From Cephalotus follicularis (taxonomy: Eukaryota; Streptophyta; Magnoliopsida; Oxalidales; Cephalotaceae): 64,000 bases of DNA. The translations under genes were made by a program, and so were the position numbers. Numbering within the stretch: the stretch's first letter is position 1; every line of letters starts with the position of its first letter. The notes beneath the pieces were generated by a model, which worked only from the letters and a program-made list of their open reading frames with translations, did not search any database and was not told where the DNA came from. Below, piece by piece: positions 626 to 27,300 of the stretch. The stretch covers positions 9,369 to 73,368 of the forward strand of contig BDDD01001662.1 in NCBI GenBank assembly GCA_001972305.1, given 5' to 3'.

Positions 626-636
626 ATGAGATAACC

Positions 637-648: not shown

Positions 649-650
649 CT

Positions 651-1932
651 TGTTGGAAACGAAATGTATGGCAACCTTAAACAACAAATATGTATGCGGA
701 AAATACAATTTAAGCTATGAACATAAGCAAGCACTCAATAACAAATAAATAAGAAGTTAAGGGATAGAGAGTGCAAACAAAATTTATAGTGGTTCGGCAA
801 AACCGTGCCTACGTCCACTTTCTCAAGAACTCCTTGAGATTCCACTAGAATCCTCTAGCCACCTTTGATTTTCGGCTTACGGGTGCAAATCAAACAAACC
901 ACCTTACAATTGATTTTGGGTTCCGGGTGCAAATCAATCAAACACCTTACACTTGATTTTGGGTTCCGGGTGCAAATCAAACAAACACCTTATAAGGGTT
1001 CACTCCCCTCTTTTACAATGAATGAGTTGTAAAGATAATGTGTGTTTACAAGTAACCTCTCAAAGGTTGGATATAAAAGTGTAAACAAAAAGGCTTGATG
1101 TAAATGTGCAAATTTGAGCTTGGATGTTTAGATGATCAAGAGTTGTGTTCTTCTCACTTTGTTTTTGTTTCTTGACCTCTATTTATAGCCTCATTCTCAT
1201 TATAGCCGTTGCGAAAGTCTTTGGGCATGTTGGATATGACATTTTGTTAATGCAGCCTTGTTTTAGTCTCTGCTGGCATAAAGACGTCGACTTCTTTGTG
1301 AAAGGCGTCGATGTCTTTTAGTTGGTAGCCGTTGGAAGTGGTTGAACTAGCCGTTCCTGTTTTCCCGGGTGTTGTCTATTTGAAAAGGCGTCGACTTCTT
1401 TTCTAAAGGCGTCGATGTCTTTTCTGGGAAATCTCCAGGTGCTGAGGCTTTGAGTGTCACGTCGATCTCTTCCTTGGAGTCGATGCTTTTTTTGGGAATA
1501 ATGAAAATGGCGTCGATCTCTATTGAAAGGCGTCGATGTCTTTTACTTGGACGTCGATGTCTTTGTCTGAGGATCGATGTCTTTGAGTGCAATTCCATAC
1601 AGTAGCTTCTGTCTTGAAAAGAGACTAAACGCGTCGATGTGTTCACTGAAGTAGTCGATGTGTTCTTTAATGTAGTCGACGTCTTCTGGAAGTAGTCGAC
1701 TTCTTTTGGTACGGACGTCGATGCCAATACTGGAAGGAAGATGTTTTCTTTGCAGTTAATCCTGTACAAAAGGCGTTGATGCTATTTGGAAGGAGTCGAC
1801 TTCTTTTTCTGCAGATTGGTTTTAGGCTTGATATTCAACTTGTAATTCTTTGCACATCAAGTAAACAAGTTAAATGCAATTTGTAATCATTAAAACATAT
1901 GATTGAGACTTATCATCAATAAAGTCCCAACA
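651..1932 (-). repeat. 5' LTR of a Sirevirus-type Copia element (F')
   Basis: The LTR begins TGTTGG and ends CCAACA, a perfect inverted terminal repeat, and is 1282 bp long. It shares the stretch around GTGGTTCGGCAAAACCG (about 790-840) with the LTRs of F and H. On the minus strand a TATA box (TATAAATAG) lies near 1180-1190. The 3' flank starts AATTT. The element interrupts a Gypsy-like LTR that continues at 1933. Only this LTR, the primer site and the reversed gag start are inside the window, so a target duplication cannot be checked. Confidence 0.85.
1283..1806. repeat. Array of about 18 GTCGA(C/T) motifs in the F' LTR
   Basis: A short unit of the form GCGTCGA(C/T)(T/G)TCTTT recurs about every 20-45 bases, for example at 1283, 1304, 1387, 1410, 1511, 1540 and 1634. 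Spacing is irregular and the intervening sequence is not repeated, so this is not a simple tandem repeat. On the element's own strand it lies upstream of the TATA box, where an LTR enhancer would be expected. Confidence 0.8.
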
Positions 1933-2639
1933 AATTTTAAAACATTTTTTATATTAGTAATATGGTAAAATGGTTTTGTTTGGAAAATAAATCCTTTTTA
2001 CTATTTGCTTTATATTTCTCCTCTCCCTCTCCCGTACGTTTTCTCTCTTTCTCCTCAAAACTGATTTTCTTCCTTCTTTCTCTCCCTCAATCCTGAAATT
2101 ACCACCCTATTTCCTTCTCCTATCAGATTGTGATTCTCTCTTACGTTATCTCAGCCGATTTTTGGCCTTTTTTACCCTATTTATGTATGTCAATAGCCAT
2201 TCTATATGCCACCACTATTTTTCTTGTATTAGTAGCCGAATCTGCAAGTTTAGAAGCTGTTGTGTCCTCCATTGTTCATCATATCAGGTTTGCTTTCCTT
2301 CTGTTATGGTTTAGTAATTGGTTTGGGTTTCAATGTCATCCGAATTCTATTTCATATAGGTTGCTAGTGTGGTTAGTTTGATTCCTGCAACTTTAAGTGC
2401 TATCATGGCTTCTGAACCTGTCAACATGCATTAGGTAGATGTTACATACTGGTTTTGTTAAAGGATAATGATAATTGACAAAAAATTGATCAGGTAGTTG
2501 TGTATGCAATTAATTGGAAATTGCTTTCCCTTAAAGTAAGATCACCATTGCATGATTCTTTGTGTTTAAATGAAATTGTTGTGTCACATAAGCCCCATGT
2601 AAATGATTATGATCCCCTGGTAATGTGGTAACTTTTTTT

Positions 2640-2690
2640 CACAGAAAATTGGGATATATATATATATATATATATCTGTGTGTGTGTATG
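2640..2690. repeat. TA/TG microsatellite
   Basis: A (TA)n run at about 2654-2673 is followed by a (TG)n run to about 2686, inside LTR A. Confidence 0.8.
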
Positions 2691-2910
2691 TATGTTTTGT
2701 TTAGAAGTCATCTCTCTTTAAAAGTCTAGCCACTGTCAGTACTCTCTCTTATGATTCTATGTTATATTACTGTTTTAAATGCCACATAGAGTCCCTTTAG
2801 GTGTTTATGGTACTCTGGTGTTGTAATATTTGAGTTTTTACAGCAAAATTGCTTAAAAACTGTTATGTTTTATTGTTCTATCGCCTATGACAGTTGCATG
2901 TCTATATAAA

Positions 2911-3098
2911 TAGTCGACTGTTACGCTTTGAGTAGTCAGCTGCCTTGAAAAACAGTCGGCTATTCTATCTCGCACAGTCGACTGGACCCCTATCACAGTC
3001 GACTGGATGTAGCTTTGTTTGTGCAGTCGGCTGGCCATGTGATACAGTCGACTCCCATGTCCCAAATAGTCGACTGGATTTTGTAACAGTCTACTGGT
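2911..3098. repeat. CAGTCGACTGG motif array in LTR A
   Basis: About nine copies of CAGTCG(A/G)CTGG or close variants occur in 190 bp (2912, 2935, 2953, 2978, 2996, 3024, 3044, 3068, 3087). Ten bases of the unit form a palindrome. The same unit occurs in the Sirevirus H LTRs, although the rest of the two LTRs does not look alike. Confidence 0.8.
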
Positions 3099-4905
3099 TT
3101 TGCCTAGTAAAATTATGGTTTCAAGTTTTGTTATTCGTTTGTCCTTCTAATGAATCGGAATATGTTTTAAACACTGTTTAACTTCTGTTTTGATATTCGG
3201 AAGCAGTTTTCGAATCTTTATGTGTATGATATTGTATCTTTTAGATTTCTATGCTACGAGGGACAATTAGAAATTTGTTGATCAATTCGTAAGCCATTTC
3301 TGTGATCGCTTAAGGTATGGATGTTTCATTCCTTGATACCCACCTATTGGTTTTATTATAGTAAAAAGATAGTTTTACTTTATGAATGATGTATGGATTC
3401 TTCGTTCTTCGCTTATTCCTTCGGTTTTAGTAAAATGAATTCAGTTTTGTTTTATGAATAGGATTCCTTTGATTTTATGAACTCCGTTATGCTCCGAATT
3501 TTGATATGTTTAGAAATAAAGTTGATATGATATTTTTGTGAAAATGAATTTTTTCTGACTTTATAATTCGATTCTGAAATGTGTACGAAATGTTGTGCAA
3601 TCGTCTCTTTATTTTGAAAATAAATAAGATGATTTTCCGATTATGAAAATATAATTATTTTGATAAGGAACATGACTTCTACTATCGAAGTATGTTAAAC
3701 AAAAATGACTTTCGCATTAGGAAGTATATTAACTTGAATAAGGATATGCAGAGATATTTCCCACCTATGGGGCATACCGAGGGCATGTCGTACCCCTGGC
3801 ACGGGGGCATGACACCTCCGTAGCGGTGTGATTAGTGTACGGCGTCTCTCTATGTTATGAATAAATCCCATGAGGTGGATTTATGGATCCGTTATGTATG
3901 ATAGAGGTGTATGGGTTGATCCAAGGATATGTTAAGGATTCGGATATTGGGGATTGATTGTGTAGTGTCGTACACGTCTTTCCGTCGGAGCATGCGGGCT
4001 TTGCAAACCCCTTGCACTTATGCATATGTGTATGTACTTTGGATCTCTATGTTGAGATTTCGGAATCGGATAAGTCTCTGTTATTTATTTTTGATCTCTA
4101 TGATGAGATTATGGAATCGGATAAGTTTTTGTTTTCAAATCTTTAACTCGGATAATGTTAAAGAAATTTTGAATATTGTTTCGGATACTGTTTTGAATTT
4201 TAGATTTGGCTTTGAAACTTGGATTATGATTTGAAACTTGAATATTGCTAGAAAATCAGATTCTGCCTTCGGATATCGAATTGAAAATTTTTCAAACGTT
4301 TTGAAATGCGAATATTGGTTTTGAATTGATAGAATTTTTTATGTGACTAATTTCCTATGTTTTTCTGAAATAAAGCTAATTTATTTTATACATGAGTTAT
4401 ATGACATTTAAAGGTTCAGGTATTTTCTATTCTTTAAAATTTCATTTTATGTTTTATGATTCTATATCCGTACTGAGGTTTGCTCAACCGCGTTTTTGTT
4501 TCCATGAGGCAGGTATTCTGGGACAGCATCCGGGCAACGTGTGATGAGCGAGTTGTCACCTATCTTTAAGGATCAGTTAGGAGATGGATCCGTTTCTTTT
4601 TAGTTATTTGATGGTCATGTTAGGACCCCCTTTCAACAATGTTATGCCTATTAGTTTATGATTTTGGATTATGTTTAAGCTTTTGGTTTATGTTTAAACT
4701 TTCAGTTTTTGAATAAGGCTTTCAGACTATGTCTTAGATGATGAATGTTATGTTAGACCATCACGCATTTTGAATAAAAGATAAGTTCAAACTTTGATAA
4801 AAAGGATTAAAGTCGAGCCTTGATATATGCATACGTTATGTTCAGTTTTGGATTAGGAAGCCGTAACGACTCCCACCGTTCGGGGGTGTTACAAACATAG
4901 TCTAG

Positions 4906-4917
4906 TCTCTGATACCA
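4906..4917 (-). promoter_or_regulatory. Primer-binding site of element X
   Basis: The complement reads TGGTATCAGAGA. It lies four bases from the start of LTR X at 4922, so X is a minus-strand element. Its internal region is cut off almost at once by LTR A, which ends at 4893. Confidence 0.7.
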
Positions 4918-4921
4918 ATGC

Positions 4922-5775
4922 TGTCATGCCCTGAACTGTGAGGGTACCCGACACGTGATATACACTCCGATCAGTCATATAAATCATATTTCAAAAGTGC
5001 TATGAATTTAAAACATGAAATCAAGGTCAAGCAAGAGGAATAATCATTCATGTATATATATTCTAACTCTTCTGATTTTAAAAAAATCGGGCATGTAGCA
5101 TCCATTTATCAGACAACGCCCCCTGTAAAGAAAACAGAATTCATATATTGGGATCATCCCTCAGCAAACCACACTCCCGTAGGAGGAAATCCATAAACAA
5201 TACAATACACATGCGGAGATAATTATTCAATACCTAGGATGATGAACCCCTTCATGTCCAATTCATCAACAAACATATATATGAAGCACTGCCACAAGTC
5301 GGAAGGTCAGTAGCAGAATTTAAAATATGTCTCTTATACATCAAGGCTTATGCCAACTTGTACAAGAAAATCCATATTCACAAGATAGATAACAAAATCT
5401 AAATTACTATCCAAGACCTGCCTTAGATATCTCATCAATCTTGATCTATCTCATTGCATTCCATCTCATGTACCTGACACATTATAATGAATGGGTCAGG
5501 TACATGTGATGGATCGCAATGAGATAGATCAAGATAGATGAGATATCTAGTGACCTATGGTCGTGTAGGCTATACTATATGCCATGTATGCAACAAATAT
5601 AACGATATGCCATGAATGCAACAGATATATATTAATGGGCCATGCGATTGAACATATATAACAATGTGTATGGCATGTCATATGTATGAATGACAATTGC
5701 GGACAACTTCACTATACCAACCGTCCCTAAGTGGTGGTGTACTTGGCTAGTCCTAACCACATCAAAAGCCATAGG
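4922..5775 (-). repeat. 5' LTR fragment of a minus-strand Gypsy element (X)
   Basis: It begins TGTCATGCCCTGAACTG next to a primer site, the same layout as the 5' LTRs of B (28867) and E (14294). The segment around 5090-5180 matches, in reverse complement, part of the LARD internal region (about 45130-45240), so the two families share ancestry. It contains the long hairpin at 5425-5548. It is cut at 5775 where another LTR begins. Confidence 0.65.
5425..5548. repeat. Inverted repeat with about 54-bp arms and a 16-bp loop
   Basis: The left arm (5425-5478) begins AGATATCTCATC and the right arm (5495-5548) ends GATGAGATATCT. The arms are near-perfect complements, with a few mismatches. The loop is about 5479-5494. 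Related Gypsy LTRs have only a short hairpin here (CCATTC..GAATGG, for example near 14609), so the long arms look like a local inverted duplication. Confidence 0.85.
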
Positions 5776-7417
5776 TGTAATAACCACAAATTTCAATTAA
5801 TGTATATTGTATGGTTAATGAATAAATTATACATTAAATTGAAAATAAATGTCCAATTATTATGTGAATTGTGATTATTGGATCAATTGAGGGCTTAATT
5901 GAATGGCTTAAAGGGTTAAATTGAAATAAATTGGAAGTTGTTTAAATGAAACTTAAAAACTAGATTTGGCGCCAAACCGTCGGCGCCAAGGAAACAAGCA
6001 TCGACGCCTTGTCCCTAACCTTTGACACTCAATAGAAACCGTTGATGTTTTTCACGAGGACATGTGTCTATGCCAGGTGATTAGGAGTAGAATGGTGGCA
6101 TGGCTGGCGTTTTAACATGGACTGGTGTTATGGAACGTGTCAAGCCAGAAGAAATCAACTGCCAACTACTGCCTGAAAGGGATTTGGACTGCATGAGTCA
6201 CCTGCCACCTACAAAATAGAAAGAAAGAAAATAAAAGTGAAGAGAAAACAAAAATAGTGAGCGAAAGAGAGGAAGAAACTGTTAATGGTTTGAGTTAATG
6301 AACTGATGAGTCACTGAGATACTTGATTCCCTATATCAGCTACGTTGTGAGTGAACTGAAAGTTAGAAAAACTTGAAAGGAGGAGAAATCATTCTGGAAT
6401 TTACTAGAGTTGCATGTTGAAGGAATTGGTTCAAAGTTGTGGTTGGGAGCTTGAAATTGTACTAGTAAGTTACTAATTCGAATTCAATTGTTGTTATCAT
6501 GGTTAAACAACTATATATACCTACTGATTTTCATTGTATATCTACTGTTAACATGCTAATATGGATTGAATTCTGAAATTTTTGAAGATTGATTGAATTG
6601 AAGGAGTTTGAGCTATAAAGTGAACAATCAATTCAAATTGATTATGGGAAAGCTACTGAGGTACGGATTATGACATGATTTTGAACCTATAGCATGTATA
6701 TCATGTTCAGATGGTTGTATATATGTTTTCATGTTGAATTGGACTTATTTATGTATGAAGAATACATGCTCTATTTTCATTCTGCTACTGCAAATTGCCT
6801 AGACGCCATAAACCGTCGATGCTTATAATTAAACTGTCAATGCTTAAGGCCAAATGGTCGATGCTTAAGGTAGAAATTCATCGATGCTTAAGTGAAGAAC
6901 ACTGTCGATGCTTTAAGATAACTGATGGCACTTTAGACATAACTGTCGACGCTTTAGTCAAAACTGTCGACGCTTAAGGGCCTGTTTCGCGTTTAATTTT
7001 CCAGATTTCACAGGCTTCCAAACGGGTTGATTTCTACAATAAGTCCTTGCTATGTGTATTCAAATTATAATATTTTAATGACTGATGCATCTACTGTTTG
7101 ACTCATATAAATTGATTTAGTGAGTGTACTGTTATCCACTATTATTTCTTGAACTGTTAATGGTACTGTGATGAAATTGCTTATTGCTTACCGTTATAGA
7201 TAGTTATATCTATCAAGTATTTTACATAACTACTACTATTTTCCAAGGATTTCCAAAAATAAGTGCTATATGCAAAATTAACTGTTTTCCCACTGTCCTG
7301 TTTTCTCCAAGTGAGAACTATTGAGTTGTTCACTATTTTCTTAAATGAAAACTTACTGTACTGTTACTGTTCCTCAAAATGGAAACCTACTGAACTGTTT
7401 TACTGTTTTCTTAAAAG
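5776..7417 (+). repeat. Truncated Gypsy-like LTR (Y)
   Basis: It starts TGTAATAACCAC and resembles the D LTRs in plan: a GGCGCC/TCGACGCC-rich upstream block (5965-6010), a purine-rich leader (6225-6290) and a stretch full of CTACTG/ACTGTT words (7080-7400). No coding region was found. It ends abruptly against the B LTR at about 7418 without a recognisable TTACA end, so one of the two was truncated at the join. Confidence 0.6.
6801..6978. repeat. GTCGATGCTTAAG motif array in LTR Y
   Basis: Seven to nine copies of a unit like CTGTCGA(C/T)GCTTAAG lie between 6801 and 6978, for example at 6813, 6849, 6874, 6903, 6943 and 6966, with degenerate copies between them. The last two read GTCGACGCTT exactly. 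Confidence 0.8.
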
Positions 7418-9574
7418 AGTATGGATATATACCCAGGTTCAACACAATACATATAAAATACACTGCCATAACCTGATAGAATATTGAAATAAAAAACATA
7501 ATTATCATCTGCAAATCCGTCCTCTGAAGCGCATTACCGAGGAGCAGGAACTTATACTTCTCTTTATCCTTGCTGCTGCTGAGGAGCTCCACTAAAGTCT
7601 GGACCTGTACTTGAACCTGACCCATTCAGAGTATGGGTCAGCAACCCAAAGGGTTATGTAGGAAACCACATGTACGGCACATACCAGAGGAGAAAGCAAT
7701 GAAAATAGAGGAAAGCGTGCATGCCATAAAATAAGCGGAGACCACAATTCATCAGTGCAGACCTTAATATATCCTAACTCATAAGCCATTCCTTTGTCCT
7801 CGGACTACTCTACTCAAGCCATACATATCAATCATATACATAAACATTACTCATAGGAGTCAAGTCTGGTATCCTATGGTCTAATCATCTGCAAGGTTCA
7901 CCTTTGGGCTCACCTGCCAGCAGAATTCACTCTCGGCATCCCCTGCCGAGCGAAATTCTCGCTTTGCTCATCTGCTCCGTGGAAGTCACCCTTGAGATCA
8001 CCTGCTATTGACGAAATTCACCCTTAGGTTCACCTTTCTAGCTAGTTCACCCGAGGATCACCTGCCTAGCAAAGTTCACCCCTTTGGTTCACCTGCTTGG
8101 TTGAATTCTCCTCATTTGGGCTCTCTGCTTGGGACGATCTCTATGTGGATTCACTCCTTAAGTTAACCTATCATAGGACGTCTTATATCAATCATATATC
8201 CTTTGGGCAGAGGAGGGACTCTGCTCGACAATGCACTGACCCTTCGACAAATCGGCACCCTTAGCGCTATGCATTGCTCCCCATTCTATACTTGGTCTAT
8301 CCTTATATATATCCTTTAGGTAGAGGAGGAACTCTGCTCTGCTTTGCTTGAACTCTTGGTCCGGATTTGCGCTCCTTAGGCGCTATACCTTACTCTTCAT
8401 TCTTTCTTGTACTTGGGGAAAAGATCCTCTCCAAAGCATTAGTCACCTCTGGGATTTATGACTTAGGAGGTCCTCGGACAAGTCATACTTGGGCACCTCG
8501 GTTCCTTGGGAACATTTTCTCCTTGGCAATATGCTCCTCAGTCGTTATGCTCCTCGGACATTTACCTCAATGTCCCTGGACGCGTGCTTGGTGTTCCTCG
8601 ATCACATGCTTGGGATCCTTGGAAGCATGCTTTGGGATCCTCTGACACAGGGTCAGGTATGCTTGGACAGATACTTTGGTGTCCTCGAAACCTTTGTACC
8701 CTGGCATTATGCTCCTCATGCATATGCTCCTTAGGCACACACTAGCGCTGGTTGGACACATAGTCCTCCTCGGGCACACTAGCGCTGCTCGGCATATACT
8801 TCATTTCTAAGTGCTTCCAAGCATAGAGGCATCGCCAGACATCAAATTTTGACAGAGAAGTGCAGAATCCTAGTCTAACAGTCACAAAAAAATAAGAAAA
8901 ACACACAACCACGCATACATTCAATAAATCAACCAAAGCAAACAACACACACATGCTGGTAGGCGCTTGAACATTAACCAACCTACCTGGAGAACTGTTT
9001 GAAATGGAGATGGAATGGTTCCTCCTTAAATTCTGGATTTCCTTCTGACCGAGGACTACTACATGCTTAGATCACCTTTTCGTTTACTCTTGTACAATTC
9101 CCCTTGCTTCCAGGAGATGGGTACTTATATATGGGAGTGTAGGAGGTGCGAGACTCCTCGAAAGAGTACCCATCTTGTCTTCTTCCGCCTCACATTGCCA
9201 ACATCTGGCCCCATCTTCCACCATTCTCGCCTTTCTCTCGATTTCTCTACAGAGTGTATAAGAAAATGGCAAAAAGTGTGTCTCCCGGCTATCACCAACA
9301 TTTTATACACATAAGCTGAAGGTTCTAGAATTCTCTAGGCAATCTCCAACGGTGCAGGCCATTTCCAGGACTTGGGCCGACCTCCTCCCTTGGGCCAACT
9401 TCACTCTTTCTTCCTTAAAGTTCAATTGCCACATGCTATAAACAAACTTGGACAAAAGGAGCGAAAGTAATCTCTTGAGCCCAATGTCATAAACCATACC
9501 CCATTTCGGTCCAAAAGAGAAAACAACTCGTTAAGGCCCAATAATAATACTTTATAATATTTATGGCCATTACA
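7418..9574 (-). repeat. 3' LTR of Gypsy element B (left LTR)
   Basis: It is collinear with 28996-31355 (the 5' LTR of B), apart from the solo LTR inserted in that copy. On the minus strand it begins TGTAATGG immediately after a polypurine tract. About 129 bp equivalent to 28867-28995 are missing at the left end. The last 780 bp (8794-9574) have no partner in the window because D interrupts the other LTR. It holds a series of related short words (GTTCACC, CACCTGC) between 7890 and 8110. The many ORFs at 8367-9500 are LTR sequence, not genes. Confidence 0.8.
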
Positions 9575-9678
9575 TCCTCCCCTCCTCATAGAAATCTCGT
9601 CTCGAGATTTCCAAAGATGAGAATAAATGGGGGTACTTAGCCTGCTTATAATATTCTCTTTCCGAGGTAGCTTCTTCC
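9575..9678 (-). pseudogene. Gypsy B pol, C-terminal chromodomain end, plus polypurine tract
   Basis: On the minus strand this continues the reading frame that stops at the C insertion point (24065). It encodes the chromodomain-like motif ending KYPHLF, followed by a stop and the purine tract GAGGAGGGGAGGA (about 9576-9588). It completes the integrase C-terminus, so C split the B pol gene only a few dozen codons from its end. Confidence 0.8.
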
Positions 9679-11854
9679 TGTTAGATATAGTGGCCGGACA
9701 AGCCATTAGAAGGGTTGTCAAATTATATCTTATCTTGTATGAAACAATCTTATTCCTTATATATATGATGCGTGCTAATTTTGTTATGGCTAAATCACTT
9801 GTGTTTTATCACTTAATTGAAGTAGTTTATTATTTACATGCTTACACTTGTGATGCCCTTACATAAGGTTGGATGCCTAGCATGGAGGCTGTGAGATTGG
9901 TTACCTTATTCCTTATGTCGAATTAGTTCCAAGTCATAGGTTCACCTTGTGGGCATCAGTGAACCGGATAGACTTGCGCGTATGTTGCCTGCTCATGGAA
10001 TTGGGGGATGGATTCTCTCACTACCATCTGTGTTGGACACTAGGGCAAATACGGGGTGCGCGCTGGGAGCGTGTACACTAAACAGGACCCGCGCGGGAGA
10101 TACTATTTGGATAGTCGCTATTCTCATGTCAGTAGTGACTCCTACTTGTTACGGTTATGTATAAGTGATCATCACTTAGCGAGTTCTTTAACTCATCTGA
10201 TCCTTAGACTTGAGCGACTACTCTATATTGTATGGAGACGGTTATGCTTTGATCTCCACCTTACCCAGTCCTTACACAGGGCTGGCAATCGGGTGGTCTT
10301 TGGGTATGATCGAATCTATACGAATATAAGTGAGTGCGCAATATGGGATTGTTACACCTGAGCGAAGGTGATCGGCTCTATTATGATCTGATTATACTTT
10401 GGACTTATGAAATCCTTGGACAAGGTTGAGGTAGACTGGAAATTAGATTTCTGGAGAGTATACCAAAGGTTCTAGTAATGATCAGATATTTTAGTCATTG
10501 AGGTATTATCTAGGGTTGACAGATATCCTTACCCTAGACCTCAATCGGGGCCAAGCATTGACAACGGATTTTAGTACACGTGAACCGGCGACTTAGAAAA
10601 TCCATGGTTTATAAGGTGTGTAATAAATTATGGGAAAATTAATTAGATTAATTTTTTCATCTGCATAATATTTGGATATTATTCCAATAGCATTTAAATT
10701 GGTCAAGGACCATTTAGAATGGCTAAACCAGACCCTAGGGGTATTTTAGTAATTTATGAACACCTCTTGTTTTAATCAAGATTTTAAAGGGTCCCTGCCT
10801 TATAATGATTAGTTCCTTGATATGTTGGACACATTAAGTCTTGGTGTCAATTATCAGCTATGTGGATTTTGCATTTTGTGGAAACACATATGTTTGATCT
10901 TACTTAACCAATATTTGAAGGGTACAGGAGATCACTAAAATAGTTAGACTCTTATTACTTAACTGGCCAGACAAAGCGTCGATGTCTTTTACAAAGACAT
11001 CGATGCTTAACGTTTTTTATAGGTGTCGATGCCTTTTAGAAAGATTCGATGTTCTTGGTACCACATTGCATAAGCATCGATCTCCTTTGGAAGGCATCGA
11101 CGTCTTTGAGCAGAACGTGCAACCTGTCCATGAGCTCACTTCGTGGGCACCTTTTCTCTCTCATCTCTAGAAGCTTTCTCTCATTCTTGCATGTTATGGG
11201 AACGTGGGGATCATGGCCATAGACTCCCGAGGAGTAAGGACCATGATCTTAAGTGAATGGGAGAGTGGGAAAGAGAAGGAGGAGGCTAGTTAAAAACATT
11301 TTCTGCAGAACATGTTTTGAGGGAAGTTGAGTTTTTGCTGGGCAAGTGACTTCAATTTTCTCTCTGCAGAGTGTTTTCCTTTCATCTGTGATACACCAAG
11401 CAAGTGCTTATCTAGGGTGGATTTATTATTGACTTCATTGGTCAATATCAATTTACTTTTTCTAAACTTAGTGAGAGAGAGAGAGAGTTCATACACTTTG
11501 TATTTGGTTCTTGCTGGTTGGATTACTTGTTGTTCCAGAGACTTGGAGAAGATTAAAGAGGGAATCTACTCAAGCGTGTAGCGGCAAAGAAAGAATGAGC
11601 CTTCACCCGCTGGTATATCTCTTGGTCCTTCTCTTCTTGCCATGCTTGTGTGTCACCATTATTTGATATGGTGACACCAATTCAATTCTGTTGATGATGT
11701 GGTGATCCATGTGGTCAGTGGACATGCCATAATGGATTGCATTTTTTTTATTGGGTGTTCTTCCGCTGCCATGTTCATATGTTTTTGTTTTGTTCTACAC
11801 CCTACACACCATAGTCCATTTATGGCTCTAGATTCGGTTCATCCGTTTCCATCA
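9679..11854 (+). repeat. 5' LTR of Copia C
   Basis: This 2176-bp LTR is bounded by TG..CA and by the target duplication. The first 310 bp and last 330 bp match the 3' LTR closely. The middle, about 1.55 kb, is absent from the 3' copy. It includes a motif array at 10977-11108 and a GA-rich stretch near 11470. Confidence 0.9.
10977..11108. repeat. GTCGATGTCTTT motif array in C 5' LTR
   Basis: Six copies of a unit of the type (G/A)(C/T)(G/A)TCGA(T/C)G(T/C)CTTT lie at about 10977, 11005, 11031, 11046, 11073 and 11093, in direct and inverted orientation. The array falls in the part of the LTR that the 3' copy has lost. Confidence 0.75.
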
Positions 11855-11855
11855 G

Positions 11856-11867
11856 TGGTATCAGAGC
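11856..11867 (+). promoter_or_regulatory. Primer-binding site of C
   Basis: TGGTATCAGAGC, complementary to the 3' end of initiator tRNA-Met, one base after the LTR. Confidence 0.9.
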
Positions 11868-12152
11868 GTCCCACATCATGCTTGATTAAATTTATGCCTT
11901 AGATGATGTACTGATTAATGGTTTAATTAATGGATGTGTTTTATGATCAAACTAGATTTTCAAAATGCCTTAGTGAAAAGTACATGAAATTGGATTTCAT
12001 TGTGTTTTTGACCTGGTGATTTTGATATAATGTGTTTAGAATTATGTTTGGAACATGCATAGTGCATTTTTGATTGCCAGATAGGAATGCCAAAGTTTAA
12101 ACCATTATTTTTCTGCATTTTTCGAAATGCCGAAACTGCCTAGGGGGCTATA

Positions 12153-12396
12153 GACGTCGACGTTCTTGATAGACGCCGATGTCTTGTTCATCTTTCCAGG
12201 AAACGCGTCGATGTTCTTGATAGACATCGATTCCTCGTTCATCGTTTCTAGGAAAAGCGTCGATGTTATTGATAAACGTCGACGCCTTTTTCAACAATTC
12301 TTGAGAAACGCATTGATGCTCGTGTTATGCATCGACGCCTTTTTCAGTAGTTTTCATAAAATGCGTCGACGCCTTCTGGGAAGCGTCGACGTCTTT
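12153..12396. repeat. GTCGACGCCTTT motif array in C leader
   Basis: Ten copies of a GCGTCGA(C/T)G(C/T)(C/T)TT-type unit occur within 245 bp (for example 12153, 12205, 12257, 12276, 12363, 12383), many in head-to-head pairs separated by about 20 bases. It lies downstream of the primer site, so unlike the LTR array it is transcribed but not part of the LTR. Confidence 0.8.
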
Positions 12397-13176
12397 AAAA
12401 AAAATTAAAAAAATTGTTATTTTATAAAATTGGATTTTATACATTTTGGCACTTAGAAAATCAAAAATCATTGCTTGATTTAGTGGGAGTTTGATCAGTT
12501 AACAATCCTTAAATCAAATTGTTTGATTGGTTATTATTTATGGCATTTGTTTTATTTCTGTTTTATTATATTGGATATAATATAAGTCTTATGCACAATG
12601 GATGGCCCAATAAGGACATAGACCTAGTTTGTGGTTTTTCTTGTGTTGATGGATTTATTTATTTATTTATTACTTTAAAGGTTTGTAATTAGGTGCCTGC
12701 GTGCATTACTTGTTTTTCCTTTTTTTTTTTTGTAATTTTTCCTTGTATTTTTAAATGTAATTTTTCTTTCAAAAATCTAAAGTTCTTTATGTAAAAGAAG
12801 ACCTTACAAGGAGAGATGGAGGAAAGGAGAAATGGAGTACAAGACTTTTGAAGGCCATGTATGCATGGTTATTTGTTGTAATAAATAGATTTAAATCGTT
12901 ACATCTAGGAAGACCTAGTAGTGATTTTGGGCTTAAGTCACTACTCATAATATCCTGGCCAATCCATTGACATATTTTAGAAATATGTCCAAGGTGCATA
13001 AGATACACGTCTTGCATGCTAAGCCGTAATTAATTGAAATTGGCTAATACAACCAATGAATTAATTAATGGCTCGGTAATTAAAATATGAGACCGCAAAT
13101 TCCCTCACTTTAATAATAAGTCTTAACGTAGGAACCCATGGAGTGGTTCCCCGCGGCCTTCCACAATTTTCGTTGA

Positions 13177-13239
13177 GTAGTGTTCCTGGGTTGTTGGTTT
13201 GTCATGCCCTAGCTGAGGCTGATGACTTGGGAATATTAT
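13177..13239 (+). promoter_or_regulatory. Leader hairpin 1 (shared 15-nt loop)
   Basis: 13183-13196 pairs with 13220-13233 over 14 positions, seven of them G:U wobbles. The pairing extends outward to about 13177/13239 and inward through 13197-13200. The apical loop is GTCATGCCCTAGCTG (13201-13215). Confidence 0.7.
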
Positions 13240-13356
13240 GTCAACGTCGGTGTTGGGCACCGTAAAGGGTGGCTATCTTTTAGCACTTGGACACGCCTAC
13301 GTGTGGGTGTTAAAACTAGTGCATTCCAATGAAAATTGTGGGTACTTGACTCATCA

Positions 13357-13402
13357 AGATTCTGATGGTTTGTCATGCCCTAGCCGAGACCATATTGAAT
13401 CT
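13357..13402 (+). promoter_or_regulatory. Leader hairpin 2 (shared 15-nt loop)
   Basis: AGATTC (13357-13362) pairs with GAATCT (13397-13402), and ATGGTTT (13365-13371) pairs with GAGACCAT or close to it (13387-13393), with a small internal loop. The apical loop is GTCATGCCCTAGCCG (13372-13386), one base different from hairpin 1. The stem sequence is unlike that of hairpin 1. Confidence 0.65.
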
Positions 13403-13465
13403 AAGGCCGAATACTATGATTGGATCTTGTATTGGATAAAAATTGGGAAGATAGCCTACCCATTG

Positions 13466-13510
13466 GATATATTATAGTTTGTCATGCCCAAGCTGAGGCT
13501 ATAATATGAT
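13466..13510 (+). promoter_or_regulatory. Leader hairpin 3 (shared 15-nt loop)
   Basis: ATATTATAG (13469-13477) pairs perfectly with CTATAATAT (13499-13507), and the inner pairs at 13478-13480/13496-13498 match those of hairpin 1. The loop is GTCATGCCCAAGCTG (13481-13495). The stem sequence differs again from the other two. Confidence 0.7.
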
Positions 13511-13691
13511 TGCGATGGATTCCAATCCCCACTAGGAAGTTAGAGTTCTCGAGTTCCATATGGGGGTATGGGATACGATTAGAATAGTGGGAGGAACCAT
13601 AAGCACTAAAGACCAAGTGTTATGGTTATCATATATTAAAATTGGAATAAATGCTAACTCATGCTTATATTTCCTTATCTAGGTTGCTACA

Positions 13692-13777
13692 ATGGCTTTA
13701 TCAAATGAAATGTCCCGTATTCTTGAGACAAAGAAACTTGATGGGCCCAACTTCAACGATTGGCACCGTAACCTCAA
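13692..13777 (+). pseudogene. Copia C gag, N-terminal fragment
   Basis: The ATG at 13692 opens a frame whose first 28 residues include the FNDWHRNL motif (W at about residue 24) seen at the start of plant Copia Gag proteins, which form the nucleocapsid shell. The frame runs into the N gap. About 100 residues of the capsid domain expected next are absent, and gag resumes at 19635 beyond E and F. The longer frame read through the Ns is a chimera with reversed Gypsy sequence and should be ignored. Confidence 0.8.
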
Positions 13778-13802
13778 NNNNNNNNNNNNNNNNNNNNNNN
13801 NN
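13778..13802. other. 25-base assembly gap (N)
   Basis: Runs of N of this fixed size usually mark a gap of unknown length. Copia gag lies to its left and string-reversed Gypsy gag to its right, so the two sides may not be truly adjacent. Confidence 0.95.
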
Positions 13803-14072
13803 GTTCTTCATGTTGGACGACGAGGACGGTCTCTCCTTGCGTCTCCTAAGTACTCTTCTTACGCGCGATACTATTTGGTTTACGTACTTAAAGAAGTTCC
13901 TGTTGGTCTACTCCTACTTGGTGGACGACGACTTGGTCGGTCTGCACGTCGTCTCAGAAGACTTGTCTGTAGTCGGCGAGCTGGTCGATCCGCTCGACAT
14001 CGGCGTTCTTCTAGTCAGCTGGTTGGAAGTGCTGCTCTTTTAGGAAACCAACCTAAAGACTTCAATTTGGGA
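13803..14072. other. String-reversed Gypsy gag segment (assembly artefact)
   Basis: Read backwards without complementing, 14037 down to 14019 is CTCGTCGTGAAGGTTGGTC, identical to 28413-28431 in the B gag. The match continues over the block: CAGCAGCAGGTGG at 13932 down to 13920 equals 28518-28530, and the end near 13803 corresponds to about 28660. Normal orientation resumes at about 14071, so the block is reversed in place next to the gap. In the given orientation no Gypsy similarity is visible on either strand. Confidence 0.93.
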
Positions 14073-14182
14073 GGAGGTGCATTAACTTCCCCTTGTTCTT
14101 CGGCACCTCTATTTGAACGGGTACGTCTAACTGACTGTCCAGATCTTTCTCCTCGTACGCTTCTACTTCGTCGTCCTTCCAT
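14073..14182 (-). pseudogene. Gypsy E gag start
   Basis: On the minus strand an ATG at 14182 opens an arginine-rich frame beginning MEGRRSRSVRGERSG, equivalent to the broken gag start of B at 28757. The capsid and later parts follow in the reversed block and then vanish into the gap. E belongs to the same family as B but is a separate copy with an intact N-terminal reading frame. Confidence 0.75.
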
Positions 14183-14293
14183 TCTGGTTCATATAAAAGA
14201 ACGGGTCAATATCCACACATATACCTTATTTCCACTTTTGCCGAGGGTCCTATCCCGGCGTATCCAGAATAGTACGGCTCTGATACCAAAAAC
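14183..14293 (-). promoter_or_regulatory. Gypsy E leader and primer-binding site
   Basis: The complement of 14277-14288 is TGGTATCAGAGC. The leader between it and gag matches 28758-28849 of B, including the shared TATCC(A)GAATAGTACGGCTC stretch. Confidence 0.85.
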
Positions 14294-15966
14294 TGTCACG
14301 CCCCGAATCGTGGGATGGGCCCCGCGATTCGACACGTGGCAATCCGTACAATCATCATAAAAATTTAAAACTTAATAAAAACTAAAAATAATAAATCAAA
14401 ATCCTTTATTTATTGTGTGGATTACAGACCCAGTTCAAATCATATAAATTACATCATCATGAACCAGAATAAAATAAAATAAAATAAATACATAATTTAT
14501 TTCTGCAATTGCGTCCATGGAAGCGTACTGTCGAGGAGGAGAACTTACTGTACCTTCTTATCCTTGCCGCTGCTGCGATGTGCCTCCGCTACCTGTACCT
14601 GTACCTGGCCCATTCAAAAGAATGGGTCAGCAACCCTGAGGGTTGTGTAGGTCACCCCATACACGGGCACATACCAGAGGAACAAGCAAACACAAGCAGA
14701 GAAGAAAAATAATATAAATGTGCATGCATATAAATCATAGTCATCGTCATCATTTATCCTAAGACTGCTCGACTAGAATCAGACATAAAAATCATATCGC
14801 AGAGGAGTATAGTACGTATCATCCTCATGGCACTGGAAAAAAGATCAAGGTCCTACCTTTAGAATCAACCATACCCACGCAATCCATGACCAACAGAACA
14901 CCAGACTGAGCGGTATAGTAAAATCGATCACCAAAAAGCGCTTCACACCTTGAATCACCATCCTTGGAAGGAGTTCACCCTTAGGTCCACAATTGGCGGT
15001 TCGCCCGAGGATCAACTGCCTCGACGGAGTTCAACCCGTAGGTTCACCTGCTCGGCGGAATTCTCCCCTGTTGAGCTCAAAAGCCTGGTATGTATCCTTG
15101 GATTTCATTTGCTAAATCCATTCATTTCTTTAACATTTTAAAATCATTCTTTAATTTCATCCCTTATGAGCATAGTAAAACACAATTGGAATTCACATAA
15201 AACGCATGCATTGGCATTTGCTTCTAAACGCACCGTACATAACTTAAATCCCTTCTTCTTTTCCTTCATTTGCAAGCAGGCTCAATATTTAAAAACTGGC
15301 GCCAAACACATCATCTTCGTCTAGCTTCATTTTTCATTCCAGTACCGTGGCGCTTGACACAGCGACCTTGAGACATGCGACAGAGGTCAGGGATCACCTC
15401 TGCACTTGGTCCTCGGAAGCTTGGCGTCATTACCGTAGACCAACTTCAAGGGTGCAGGTCGACCATAGCTTCCTGCAAGGGTGCGTTCTCGGACGGAGCA
15501 GAGGAGAGTGCAAGGCGCCTTCGTGGAAGGCTCGGGCGCTGTTCCAAGCGTGGGACGCATAGATTTGCTTCCTCGGACGCCTGGGATTTATGCTTCCTTG
15601 GCAGCGTCCTCGGAATGGCGCTGGAGCATCTCCCATGTTGAGGCAGAGAGTGATTGCGCATGGCAGAGGAAAATCGCGTCCCGTGGCCCAGGATGGTGCT
15701 CGCATCAGTAAGCTCGGGCCTTGCAGTAATGGCATCTCGGACCTGTAACCTCTGCACTAGACGTCTCGGGGATGACGGCAGAGGTACCTCGGACATACAA
15801 GCTATGCTCCACTCCCACTGGCGCCATGGCAGAGAAGTCATGAACTTCTCAGAGTGTTATCAAAAGAGCCAGAGGAGCTCAATGCATGCATGGTAACTCG
15901 ACTGACGCGTCCTTAGCATGTTTCCTTGGACACATGAGTGCTTGAAGGGCTATGCTGAGAAGGTCA
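14294..15966 (-). repeat. 5' LTR of Gypsy E, truncated
   Basis: It begins TGTCACGCCCCGAATCGTGG and follows the plan of the B LTR: a GGCCCATTC..GAATGGGTCAG hairpin at about 14607, then serial TTCACC words and CCTCGGA words. It is cut at 15966 by the F LTR and does not resume at the other side of F. GC content is higher than in B, giving several long but meaningless ORFs (15347-15896). Confidence 0.75.
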
Positions 15967-17015
15967 TGTTGGAAACGTATGGCAACCTTTAACTAATAAC
16001 TTTGTATGCGGAAAATACAAATTAAGCAATGAACATAAACAATCACACAAGCAACAAAATAAAATTAAAGAGTTAAGGGATAGAAGAGTGCAAACGAATT
16101 TATAGTGGTTCGGCAAAACCGTGCCTACGTCCACTTTCTCAAGACCTCTTGAGTTTCCACTAGAATCCCCTAGCAACCTTTGATTTTCGGCTTACGGGTG
16201 CAAATCAAAGAAACCACCTTACACTTGATTTAACTTCCGGGTGTAAATCAATGAAAAACCTTACAAGGGTTCACTCCCCTCAAATACAAAGAATGATAAA
16301 AGTAATTGGTGTAGTGTTTACAATAACCTCTCAATAGGTTGGATATGAAAGTGTAAACTAGTTGCAAGCTTTGGGTATGAAAGTGTAAAGCTTTAGCTTG
16401 ATGCTCTTTCTCTTTTGTTTGTAAATGTGCAAGTTGAGATTTTGTTGATCAAGAGTTGTTCCAAGTCTTTCAAGTCATTTGATCTTGTTTCTTGGCTTGT
16501 ATTTATAGCTTTATGTTGATTATAGCCGTTGGAGAAGAGATAGATCCGTTGGAGAAGTGTTGGAACTTGTTGCATAAAAAATGGCTCTTAAAAACAAGTT
16601 TTGATGTTGTTCCAGCAGTCCAAAGCGTCGACGGAGTAGCCTAAAGCGTCGACGGTCATGTGACCGTTGGGGCTCCCAATTTGAATCTTCAGCTCAAAGC
16701 GCAGGCGTCAACATGTTGGAGTCTGCTGTCAGACCTAAAGAGTCGACGCTTTACCTAAAGAGTCGACGCTTTAGCCATTTTGTAATTGCCATTTTGTTCT
16801 CTGCCTGAGAAGGTAGACGCTTTGCACAAAGAGCAGACGCTTTGTACCTCAAAGAGCAGACGCTTTGATCAAAGAGTCGACGCTTTGCCCTGTTTTTGCA
16901 CTTCTTAAATTTCCTTATATCTTTTCTTGCACAGAAAGATTCTTGCACATAAAGTAGCAAAGTTAAATGCAAATTTGTAATCATTAAAACTTAGGATTGA
17001 GACTAAAAGTCAACA
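15967..17015 (-). repeat. 3' LTR of F
   Basis: It starts TGTTGGAAACG and ends AGTCAACA next to a polypurine tract (complement of ATCTCCCCC at 17016-17024). The minus-strand TATA box TATAAATA is at about 16500-16507. The upstream motif array lies at 16622-16888. Confidence 0.88.
16622..16890. repeat. AAAGNGTCGACGCTTT array in F 3' LTR
   Basis: At least nine units of AAAG(A/C)G(T/C)(C/A)GACGCTTT or half-units occur (16623, 16642, 16739, 16757, 16812, 16827, 16849, 16869). Several have both palindromic halves. The array sits upstream of the TATA box on the element strand. The second LTR has the same array at 19241-19507. Confidence 0.85.
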
Positions 17016-17509
17016 ATCTCCCCCTTTTTGATGATTACAAAAATTTGCTATATTAAGGAAAAAATTTATACCAATATGAAAGTCTATATACCAATTTGAA
17101 GATAATAAGAAATTTGCTTTAGATACCAAGACAAAGATTTCTTTTAGATACCAACTTTAAAAATTTAGATAAACTCCCCTTAATATGACATTCAATTTTC
17201 AAGAATAAGGATTTATGCAAATAATCTTATCTTTACCATAAAATCCCCCTTAACACATTTTTCATTAAAAGCACATTTCTCTCCCCCTAAGCATAAGGTA
17301 TAAGTTTTTCTTTAAGCATAAGCATTCTCCCCCTTTTTGTTAGCATCAAAAAGATAAACAAAGATACCAATTGAAAATTAAAGATTAAAACCAAGAGAGC
17401 AATTTTATAATTAAAATGATACCTCCCCCTCAAATAAAGCTTTCTCTTCCTCAAACTTATGTACTTGAGCATATTGAAATTGATTTCAAGTACACCTACA
17501 AAACAAAGT
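17016..17509 (-). promoter_or_regulatory. Multiple polypurine tracts of F
   Basis: Besides the tract touching the 3' LTR (17016-17026), five more G-rich purine runs (seen here as CTCCCC(CT)-type runs) lie at about 17173, 17243, 17281, 17326 and 17422. Repeated polypurine tracts upstream of the 3' LTR are a known Sirevirus trait. No protein is encoded here; the short ORF at 17287 is AT-rich noise. Confidence 0.75.
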
Positions 17510-18544
17510 TTAAGCTTTTGGTACCCATTTGAACTTGGGTCCTTTCAAGTTAGTCACAAACGTTCCTTTCGGAACCCATATATTTCTAGTTTTACCATAG
17601 CAAAAATTATTTCTATATATGCAAGAAGTAGACACGTGTCCGAGTCTACCACAATAATTACAAGACATTTTAGGCTCACTTTTCTTGATAAAGAAATTTT
17701 GAAAATGCTTGACATTTTTCATTTCATCGTAGCCGAGACCGGCTTTGTCAAACACACATCTTTGAAGTCCTAAAAGATTGTCTAATTTAGCACTACTATT
17801 TGAAAAAATAGAGAAGGATTTCTTCAAAGCATCAATCTCAATTTTTAGTTTTTCATTTTCTTCTAAAGAATCGATTGATAGTTTTGAAGAAACATTTAAA
17901 ATGTCAATCTCATTCATATAAAAGCTATTTTTATCTTTTAGAGATTCAATTTCATTTAAGTGTTTGCTATTTTCATTCTTTAGAATCTCCAATTCTTTAG
18001 TCAGAGAAATAGCATTTTTCTTTAATGACTTCATTTTTAAACAAGCATTTTCATATTCATCATACAATTTTTCATAAGCGTTTTGTAATTCTTCGAATGT
18101 GAAATTTACCTCATTTTCGCTTTCATCTCCACTTGAATCTTCTTCCATAGCCATGAGACATGAAGTTACTCCTTCAACGTTCTTTTCTTTATGAAAATCT
18201 TCCAACTTATCCCATATCTCCTTTGCCGATTCACAAGAAGAAATACGATCAAATTCGTTAGAACTTAAAGCACAAAAAAGAATATGTTTGGCCTTAGCAT
18301 TTAGTTTTAACATTTCTTTTTCTTTTTCATTGTATTTAATTTTTGGTTTGGAGATATATTCCTTAGGCAATTCTAAACCAAAAACAATCATATCCCAAAG
18401 ATCATAATCAAGGGATTGGATAAAAGTGGACATCTTAATCTTCCATTGATTATAATCATTTCCATCAAAAAATGGTGGCATGCTAATAGACTTATTATCA
18501 TTAACACATGAAATGGTTGCCATGGATCTTTGTATCTCTAACAA
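17510..18544 (-). CDS. Sirevirus-type Gag, complete 344-residue ORF of F
   Basis: Gag forms the particle that packages the element's RNA. The frame is open for 344 codons; a second ATG at residue 8 (MATIS) is the likelier start by comparison with H (MASTS). Residues 24-110 resemble the N-terminal half of the plant Copia Gag domain (FFDGNDYNQWKIKM, IWDKLEDFHKEK). An acidic linker (133-146), a predicted coiled coil (about 150-255) and a CCHC zinc knuckle, CNYCGRLGHVSTSC (about 295-308), follow, ending in a WVPK motif. Compared with H, the second half of the capsid domain and the first zinc knuckle are missing through an in-frame deletion near residue 120. The lack of stops while neighbouring elements are riddled with them suggests youth or selection. 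Confidence 0.85.
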   Translation of the reverse strand: MLEIQRSMATISCVNDNKSISMPPFFDGNDYNQWKIKMSTFIQSLDYDLWDMIVFGLELPKEYISKPKIKYNEKEKEMLKLNAKAKHILFCALSSNEFDRISSCESAKEIWDKLEDFHKEKNVEGVTSCLMAMEEDSSGDESENEVNFTFEELQNAYEKLYDEYENACLKMKSLKKNAISLTKELEILKNENSKHLNEIESLKDKNSFYMNEIDILNVSSKLSIDSLEENEKLKIEIDALKKSFSIFSNSSAKLDNLLGLQRCVFDKAGLGYDEMKNVKHFQNFFIKKSEPKMSCNYCGRLGHVSTSCIYRNNFCYGKTRNIWVPKGTFVTNLKGPKFKWVPKA

Positions 18545-18565
18545 TTAAGAATAATGAGATAACCT

Positions 18566-18577
18566 TCTCTGATACCA
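18566..18577 (-). promoter_or_regulatory. Primer-binding site of F
   Basis: The complement is TGGTATCAGAGA, an initiator tRNA-Met site two bases from the 5' LTR at 18580. Confidence 0.88.
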
Positions 18578-18579
18578 CT

Positions 18580-19634
18580 TGTTGAAAACGTATGGCAACC
18601 TTTAACTAATAACTTTGTATGCGGAAAATACAATTTAAGCAATGAACATAAACACTCACACAAGCACATCAAATAATAACAATTAAAGAGTTAAGGGATA
18701 GAAAGTGCAAACGAATTTATAGTGGTTCGGCAAAACCGTGCCTACGTCCACTTTCTCAAGACCTCTTGAGTTTCCACTAGAATCCCCTAGCAACCTTTGA
18801 TTTTTGGCTTACGGGTGCAAATCAAAGAAACCACCTTACACTTGATTTAACTTCCGGGTGTAAATCAATGAAAAACCTTACAAGGGTTCACTCCCCTCAA
18901 ATACAAAGAATGATAAAAAGTAATTGGTTTTGTGTTTACAATAACCTCTCAATAGGTTGGATATAAAAGTGTAAACTAGTTGCAAGCTTTGGGTATGAAA
19001 GTGTAAAGCTTTAGCTTGATGCTCTTTCTCTTTTGTTTGTAAATGTGCAAGTTGAGATTTTGTTGATCAAGAGTTGTTCCAAGTCTTTCAAGTCATTTGA
19101 TCTTGTTTCTTGGCTTGTATTTATAGCTTTATGTTGATTATAGCCGTTGGAGAAGAGATAGATCCGTTGGAGAAGTGTTGGAACTTGTTGCATAAAAAAA
19201 TGGCTCTTAAAAACAAGTTTTGATGTTGTTCCAGCAGTCCAAAGCGTCGACGGAGTAGCCTAAAGCGTCGACGGTCATGTGACCGTTGGGGCTCCCAATT
19301 TGAATCTTCAGCTCAAAGCGCAGGCGTCAACATGTTGGAGTCTGCTGTCAGACTTAAAGAGTCGACGCTTTACCTAAAGAGTCGACGCTTTAGCCATTTT
19401 GTAATTGCCATTTTGTTCTCTGCCTTAGAAGGTAGACGCTTTGCACAAAGAGCAGACGCTTTGTACCTCAAAGAGCAGACGCTTTGATCAAAGAGTCGAC
19501 GCTTTGCCCTGTTTTTGCACTTCTTAAATTTCCTTATATCTTTTCTTGCACAGAAAGATTCTTGCACATAAAGTAGCAAAGTTAAATGCAAATTTGTAAT
19601 CATTAAAACTTAGGATTGAGACTAAAAGTCAACA
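18580..19634 (-). repeat. 5' LTR of F
   Basis: It is the near-identical partner of 15967-17015. Visible differences include TGTTGA for TGTTGG at the end, a small indel near 18668, and a few substitutions. The minus-strand TATA box is at about 19118-19125 and the motif array at 19241-19507. Confidence 0.88.
19241..19507. repeat. AAAGNGTCGACGCTTT array in F 5' LTR
   Basis: Same series of palindromic units as in the 3' LTR, with only single-base differences, so the array is conserved between the two LTR copies. Confidence 0.85.
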
Positions 19635-20742: not shown

Positions 20743-21726
20743 CATTGTAGATTTGGTCATCTTAGTGATGCTAGACTATCACAGTTGGTTAAGGATGATC
20801 TACTTGATATCCAGGACTTAGAGTCCTATCCAACTTGTGAATCCTGTTTATTAGGAAAGATGACCAAATCACCATTCTCTGGTCAAGGAGAAAGGTCTAT
20901 GGACTTACTGGGTCTAGTCCATACTGACGTATGTGGTCCTATGTCAGTCAGTGCGCGAGGTGGTTATATCTACTTCATAACCTTTACCGACGAATTATCT
21001 AGGTATGGTTATGTGTATCTGATGAAACACAAGTCAGAATCCTTTCAGAAATCTAAGGAGTTCAGACTTGAAGTAGAAAAACAAACAGGTAAATCCATTA
21101 AAATACTTTGGTCGGACTGAGGTGGAGAATACCTGTCAGCTAAATTCCTAGGTTATCTTAGAGATAACGGAATTCTATCTCAGTGGACTCCTCTTAGAAC
21201 ACCACAGCATAATGGTGTGTCCGAAAGGAGGAATCGGACCTTGTTAGACATGGTTCGATCGATGATGTCTTTTACTGACCTTCTTACCTATCTCTGGGGT
21301 TATGCCCTAGATACAGCTGCTTATATCTTGAATCAGATTCCTTCAAAATCTGTGCCTTCTACTCCATACCAGGTATGGTCAGGGAGGAAATCCAGCCTGA
21401 GCCATTTGAAGGTTTAGGGCTGTTCTGCTTATGTCAAGAGGCTTGACGCAGATAAGCTGGAAGCGCGGTCGGACCGCTGCAGGTTTGTGGGGTATCGTAA
21501 AGAAACAAAAGGATACTACTTCTATCACTCTAGCGAACAAAAGATATTTGTTTCGCGAAATGCTGTGTTTCTAGAGAAGGAATACCTTCTTGAAGGAAAC
21601 AGTGGGAGTAAGGTGGAACTCAAGGAGTTGCCACAGGTAGAAACCACACAGGGAATGGAGGAGTTGGAGGTTAGACCTTCAACAGACTCAGCTGAGATTG
21701 GATCTCAGGCTGAGAATAGTTCTTAG
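20743..21726 (+). pseudogene. Copia C integrase (with GAG-pre-integrase zinc motif)
   Basis: It begins with the HCRFGHLS...CESC zinc-binding motif, then the integrase core: HTDVCGP (first Asp, about 20923), the second Asp in ILWSD just before a TGA (21118-21120) that replaces an expected Arg, and the Glu of HNGVSERRNRTL (about 21220). Further in-frame stops are TAG at 21415-21417 (expected Trp) and TAG at 21724-21726. The enzyme would insert element DNA into the genome, but this copy is inactive. Confidence 0.88.
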
Positions 21727-22695
21727 TTAGGCAAAGCTCTTTTGAGGAGATCAGGCAGAATCCCATTAGCACCTGAGAGGTATGGTTTCCTCATTGATGG
21801 TACTGATGAGATAAACGTTATTAAAGATGACGAGCCTGCCAATAACTTAGAGGCAGTGCAAAGCACTGAATCTGAAGCATGGCTAGGAGCCATGAAATCC
21901 GAGATGGATTCCATGTATTCCAACCAAGTATGGAATTTGGTTGAAGCACCCGAAGGCATAGTGCCTATTGGCTGCAAATGGATCTTCAAGAAGACTTATA
22001 AAGCTCGATTAGTGGCGAAAGGGTATAGGCAACGACATGGGGTTGACTATACTGAGACTTTCTCACCTGTCGCCATGCTTAAATCCATTAGGATTTTGCT
22101 TATTATTGCCGCTCATTGTGATTATGAGATATGGCAAATGTATGTCAAGACGACATTCTTAAATGGGCGTCTTGAAGAGGATATTTATATGTCCCAACCC
22201 GAGGGGTTTACATCTTCCGAGCACCCACACATGGTGTGCAAGCTCGATCGGTCCATCTATGGACTAAAGCAAGCATCTCGTAGGTGGAATCTACATTTTG
22301 ATGAAGCAGTCAAAGCTTTTGACTTCGTTAAAAATATAGATGAGGCCTGTGTTTATCGAAATCAAGAGGGAACTAGTATCACTTTCTTAGTGCTATATGT
22401 AGATGACATTCTACTCATTGGGAATGATGTAGGGATGTTGCAGTCTGCAAAGATATGGCTAACTAAGAATTTTTCCATGAAAGATTTGGTAGAAGCCACC
22501 TATATACTGGGTATTCGGATCTTCAGGGATAGATCCAATAGGTTACTTGGGCTTTCCCAAAGCCAGTACATCAGCAAGGTGCTGAAGAGGTTTAGCATGG
22601 ACAATTCCAAGAGACGCCTATTGCCAATAGGTGAAGGAATTCGTCTTTCTCGAAAGATGTCTCCTCAGACATCTGAAGAGAGAGCACGCATGTGA
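21727..22695 (+). pseudogene. Copia C reverse transcriptase
   Basis: RT motifs appear in order: WIFKKTYKARLVAKGYRQ (a short in-frame deletion precedes YKARL), TFSPV, TTFLNG (usually TAFLNG), IYGLKQASRRW and the catalytic LYVDDILLIG near 22400. A TGA at 22693-22695 ends the frame just before the RNase H part. The rest of the domain is intact in register. Confidence 0.9.
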
Positions 22696-26184: not shown

Positions 26185-27300
26185 TCACAATGCCAAGTGC
26201 AAATGTTCTCCATGCTCTTCCATGGACTTAGAATATATCAGGATATCATCAATAAACACCAGTATAAACTGATCAAGATATGGACTGGATATTCTATTCA
26301 TCAGGCTCATGAATGCAGCAGGGGTGTTAGTCACCCCGAAAGGCATTACCACAAATTCGTAGTGTCCATATTGTGATCGGAAGGCAGTCTTTGGAATATC
26401 CTCTACTCTAACTCTGAGCTGGTGATATCCTGATCTCAGGTCCAATTTAGAAAACACTAAAGATCCCTTCAGCTGATGAAACAGATCATCAACGTGTGGC
26501 AGTGGATATTTATTCTTGACCGTCAATTTATTTAGTTGCCGGTAATCAATACACATCCGTAATGATCCGTCTTTCTTATTAGTAAACAAGATCGTTGCTC
26601 CCCATGGGGATACACTTGGTCTGATAAAACCTTTGTCCAACAACTCCTGTAATTGTACTTTCAATTCCTTTAACTTGGGAAGGGCCATCCGGTAAGGAGC
26701 TGTCGATATGGGGGTTGTTCCTGGCAAAAGATCTATAGCAAACTCCATATCTCTCTCAGGAGGTAAGGACGTTAGTTCTTTCGGAAACACATCCGGGAAT
26801 TGACAAACCAGAGGAACATCCTCCAATTTTGGCATCCATCTGATGTCATCCGTAACATGCGCTAGGTAAGCAGTACGACCCTGTCTCAAGAGTCTGTCAG
26901 CCTGGATAGAAGATATCATAGAAAGTGGTTGATGCTCTAACGTCCCTATAAACTGGAACAGAGACTGTCCTGGACAATGGAAGGTTACAACCTTCCTATT
27001 ACAATCTACATATGCATAATGTACTGACATCCAATCCATACGGAGAATCATATCAAGGTCGTCCATCGGCAACACTATGAGGTTTGCCGGAAGAACATGT
27101 CTGAAAATCTCTATGGCACAAGATCTACACACCCACCGGGAGGTAACCGACTCTCCTACTGGAGTGTTGACCTTTATTACAAAAGGTAAGGGCTCGAGTT
27201 CCACATTCATACGACTTATAAAATAGGAAGAAAAATATGAATCGGATGAGCCTGGATCAATCAAAGTTCATGCCAAAAGCTGAGATACAAATACCATACC
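26185..27300 (-). pseudogene. Gypsy B protease and reverse transcriptase
   Basis: The longest open stretch of B (359 codons, 26185-27264). It starts with the aspartic protease motif in the form [10 protein letters not shown] (usually DSG/DTG: Ser or Thr replaced by Pro, an unlikely active site). RT follows with [46 protein letters not shown], the [14 protein letters not shown] motif and catalytic [11 protein letters not shown] near 26245. Gypsy order (RT before integrase) is clear. Confidence 0.9.

Follow-up and report, generated by a model that had tools for sequence, protein, structure and literature searches.

How can a stretch of DNA beside an assembly gap resemble a retrotransposon gag region when its letters are read backwards, and on neither of its strands as given? 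The question is raised by the sequence next to the sole N run of the window, i.e. of the whole 64,000-nt stretch of DNA that was analysed and to whose positions all coordinates refer. The N run counts exactly 25 N (13778-13802), and the segment that follows it, hereafter block 2 (13803-14074), has its outer edge flush with the run, while its right edge lies at 14072-14074. From its alignment and base order, block 2 is a Ty3/Gypsy-like gag-region segment that is string-reversed without complementing. An earlier note, made from the sequence alone, had claimed such a block directly beside the N gap, with a gag match for 14072-13803 read as a reversed string and no gag resemblance on either strand as given; the results below bear out these claims, and the coordinates it gave hold to about 2 bases.

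The reference for the alignments was a relative in normal orientation, element B (28376-28894, minus strand), itself recognised by alignment within the window. Positions 13803-14072 were locally aligned in four forms to 27801-29300: the string-reversed form scored 237, as compared with 20 for the segment as written, 18 for its reverse complement and 19 for its complement. When the whole string-reversed window was searched with BLAST against the window, block 2 and element B provided the best match, 13803-14074 corresponding to 28376-28649 (276 columns, 77.9%, 211 bits, E 1.8e-54). As written or reverse-complemented, neither block 2 nor the second block described below (block 1) has a match of at least 60 bases at E 1e-10 within the window.

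These scores bear directly on ordinary inversion or chance resemblance, a reading to which practically no credence can be given. An inversion would be at odds with the reverse complement scoring 18 and the plain reversal 237. Concerning chance, 2000 segments of 270 bases were drawn, string-reversed and aligned to 28301-28900, and 59 of them that lay near either locus were dropped; the 1941 others had a mean of 19.2 and a maximum of 54, a maximum that may derive from block 1 segments, which were left in. The highest score among 2000 shuffles of block 2 was 29. Together with the base-order scores given further on, where the statistics themselves are reversed, the alignments have already refuted both inversion and chance.

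At the protein level, the translations of block 2, flipped or as written, had no match in Pfam, nor did they have one at E 0.001 in a protein database whose limits on length keep out full polyproteins, an outcome that weighs neither for nor against. All 90 codons of the complement of block 2 can be read without a stop, and so can those of one as-written frame; the openness of frames therefore decides nothing for this block. As for element B, its Ty3/Gypsy label comes from the earlier note, and this label fits the protease and reverse-transcriptase domains (Pfam RVP_2 and RVT_1) found in the neighbouring frame 26188-27264, on the minus strand.

To the right of block 2, positions 14075-14330 (minus strand) are, by alignment, the continuation of the same element in normal orientation, from upstream of the gag start into it. 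As written, 14081-14321 aligns normally to 28656-28894, position 14081 pairing with 28656, and in the flipped block position 13803 pairs with 28649. An edge at 14074 leaves six bases on each side of the joint, so that the lengths agree exactly (only 2/6 identical); an edge at 14072 puts the count two bases out. Flipped block 2 carries the right flank onward into the gap, within two bases, and the earlier note's claim that normal sequence from about 14071 joins the flipped block stands with this near-exact joint.

On the other side of the gap, the left flank (13692-13777, plus strand) is the start of an open frame in the ORF list, which we take to resemble a Copia gag start. This flank is not reversed, the base-order score of 13478-13777 being positive. 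A mechanical ORF of 222 aa, 13692-14360, runs from this Copia-like gag start across the 25-N gap and block 2, and gene-calling software might list it among the predicted proteins.

The earlier note had also suggested that other edges may be affected, which was encountered once in the window: another string-reversed block, not listed in that note, occupies positions 1-625, again as judged from alignment and base order, and its outer edge is window base 1. Once flipped, block 1 consists of a gag-region segment resembling the element of block 2, and then of a Copia-like leader. It is continued in normal orientation by 626-1211 (plus strand), which as written aligns to 18554-19149. A relative that crosses the joint of block 1 in a single orientation lies at 18514-18686 (plus strand) and overlaps the beginning of a frame for a Copia-type gag (17513-18544, minus strand; Pfam Retrotran_gag_2). 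Its part 18514-18552 is matched by positions 42 to 3 in flipped form, and its part 18554-18686 by 626-760 as written. At the joint itself, flipped base 3 thus corresponds to 18552 and as-written 626 to 18554, with one base surplus. In the BLAST search with the string-reversed window, 3-38 matched 18517-18552 over 36/36 bases (E 4.8e-11), an independent second match.

The interior of block 1 (61-625), when flipped, scored 162 with element B (28475-28957), the other forms scoring 46, 26 and 34; among 381 reversed control segments, the highest score was 79. Flipped, it scored 68 with 14093-14232, and 40, 21 and 22 in the other forms. Both taken as written, the two blocks match each other (444-544 with 13803-13903, score 63), as is expected of two equally reversed relatives; block 1 reversed and block 2 as written gave 34. 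Pfam returned no match for the as-written translation of block 1 and, for the flipped block, only a sub-threshold match (E 0.016), which we attribute to chance. Flipped block 1 turns from Gypsy-like gag to Copia-like leader and gag start somewhere between about 145 and 45; this change may reflect a real element that is nested (truncated) or has suffered a deletion, or else an extension that is chimeric. Since a random cut would hardly fall on the edge of a block, window base 1 probably coincides with a record start.

A second line of evidence needs no relative. DNA is roughly strand-symmetric but not symmetric under string reversal, and in a reversed block the word frequencies are therefore reversed as well. 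For CG:GC, block 1 has 30:11, block 2 has 20:11 and the remainder of the window 1712:2391; the corresponding figures are 25:48, 18:23 and 4822:3674 for TG:GT, and 18:38, 7:19 and 3817:3119 for CA:AC. A base-order score was calculated from three-base words, each test segment being excluded from training. For block 1 it is -64.7, and none of the 100 other non-overlapping 625-base segments is as low (mean 28.9, sd 18.3, minimum -8.9). For block 2 it is -22.0, and 0 of 230 other non-overlapping 272-base segments are as low (mean 12.5, sd 10.5), with the lowest of them rounding to the same value as block 2.

The normally aligning flank at 14073-14342 also scores low (-12.5). In a sliding scan of 270 bases at orders 2 to 4, other places score below block 2, which is not among the 25 lowest segments listed at order 2 and ranks 24th at order 3, behind 48511, 43081 and 33811; a segment of block 1 is the lowest at every scan setting. 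The low flank score and these ranks make base order weaker evidence than alignment for block 2. The case for block 2 rests on alignment, and that for block 1 on alignment and base order.

Eight places with low base-order scores were compared within the window for same-orientation relatives. Such matches, at E 1e-10 or better, were found for 48361-49020, 43081-43620, 32461-32760, 33541-34080, 29401-29670 and 33001-33540, which were taken as ordinary repeats. The matches of 32461-32760 and 33001-33540 fall in a single 2.2 kb repeat (31356-33546), that of 29401-29670 falls in a 727-base repeat, and 48361 and 43081 match one another as well as 4450 and, as reverse complement, 49307. A weak match (64%) of reversed 48361-49020 near 12722, at E 0.002, was taken as noise. 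No same-orientation match in the window at E 1e-10 was found for 21421-21750 and 52171-52530. At order 4 the former scores low in base order; when reversed, it matched 56262-56214 on the minus strand (49 columns, 75.5%, E 4e-4), the overlapping match in the whole-window search having an E of 0.99, and this is probably noise. Same-orientation repeats of the window include the pairs 41302-43164/45690-47547 (95%), 31356-33546/58259-60437 (89%) and 28990-29716/7416-8142 (87%).

What, then, could have produced the two blocks? We know of no DNA or cellular process that makes reversed, uncomplemented copies. A polymerase or a recombination event might nevertheless have made them in the organism, for instance by a "swinger" polymerisation exchanging A with T and C with G. 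Systematic-exchange RNAs have indeed been claimed, as far as published abstracts go. However, both blocks sit at an assembly edge (the gap and window base 1) and both extend their right-hand flank leftward, and besides blocks 1 and 2 the whole-window search gave no two-place string-reversal match below E 0.28, so that an origin in the organism appears scarcely conceivable. Slightly less implausible, while still very improbable, is an alteration made after assembly, in the database copy or during preparation of the window. That block 1 starts exactly at window base 1 would agree with it; block 2, however, is inside the window and abuts the 25-N run, and is an unlikely target of an arbitrary edit.

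The blocks are almost certainly a computer error of contig-end extension. More specifically, both are very probably additions to the left ends of contigs by a long-read gap-filling or extension program, pasted in backwards. The program would have reversed the added sequence without complementing it or, equivalently, complemented the outward-reading strand without reversing it. A contig-end extender must reverse-complement one class of its extensions, and half of that operation would yield blocks such as those seen here. Block 2 would extend leftward a contig that begins near 14073, the gap having stayed open and been written as 25 N; block 1 would likewise extend a contig beginning at 626, to the probable record start. 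The blocks are string-reversed, and they lie leftward of a right-hand contig, block 2 ending at the gap and block 1 at window base 1; once reordered, each continues its flanking contig, collinear within two bases at the joint. The earlier note's proposal of a fault in filling gaps or handling contigs is in this way supported: the sequence is string-reversed, it abuts the N run, and its joint is nearly exact. The Gypsy-to-Copia change within block 1 counts against this best explanation, as reversal alone does not account for it.

From these features, we infer an extension step as the cause and PBJelly, or something similar, as the program. PBJelly, which may reset unclosed or overfilled gaps to 25 N, is the leading candidate because of its 25-N gap definition and its extension of flanks; the 25-N run fits that definition, a threshold that is not peculiar to PBJelly. 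The same reversal might have come from another step, i.e. a different extender (e.g. the extend option of GMcloser) or a script that string-reversed small contigs during pseudomolecule building, which we consider unlikely. A separately placed small contig is normally parted from its neighbour by N, whereas both blocks meet their right flank without N and collinear within two bases, an argument that does not separate one extender from another. Which program was at work cannot be told from the sequence alone. GMcloser too extends scaffold ends with long reads, and the 25-N gap definition has also been used beside it (PMC6304105).

Whichever the program, the arrangement is an assembly artefact without biology, silent and possibly recurring, that serves as a quality-control alarm. 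It is conceivable, though we hold it to be somewhat less probable than the contrary, that a widely used gap filler systematically inserts left-end extensions as uncomplemented reversals and that many published assemblies are affected. If so, many assemblies would contain hundreds of non-biological bases where a scaffold starts or to the right of a residual gap, false "unique" sequence would be added to every assembly made in the same way, and the fault would have escaped notice since backward reading of strings is not part of standard homology searches. In such searches the blocks resemble orphan sequence, and they can feed false open reading frames. Detection would be cheap, by self-alignment of the string-reversed assembly, or by a base-order score, at gap edges and scaffold ends. 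A search for exact string-reversed 16S and 23S rRNA motifs in prokaryote genome contigs gave 0 matches each, in a design without a forward-orientation control. Among the papers listed on reversed uncomplemented sequence and on gap-filler bugs, the error is named in no title and in none of the abstract openings displayed.

As for known systems, PBJelly as described in the excerpted text of English et al. 2012 (PMC3504050) treats runs of 25 or more N as gaps and extends flanks into gaps that it cannot close, N being left where a gap is only reduced. Unlike the blocks reported here, string-reversed extensions are not mentioned in that excerpted description; its flank extension and "overfilled" gaps are like the blocks in that a contig end is extended into an open gap. 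Overfilled gaps and inflated sequence after PBJelly also appear in extracts of three other articles (PMC9635638, PMC7757076, PMC8848313). There, the sequence is excess or unbridged, whereas the blocks have a letter order that belongs to neither strand; common to both is wrong or excess sequence at a gap edge that is attributed to a gap filler.
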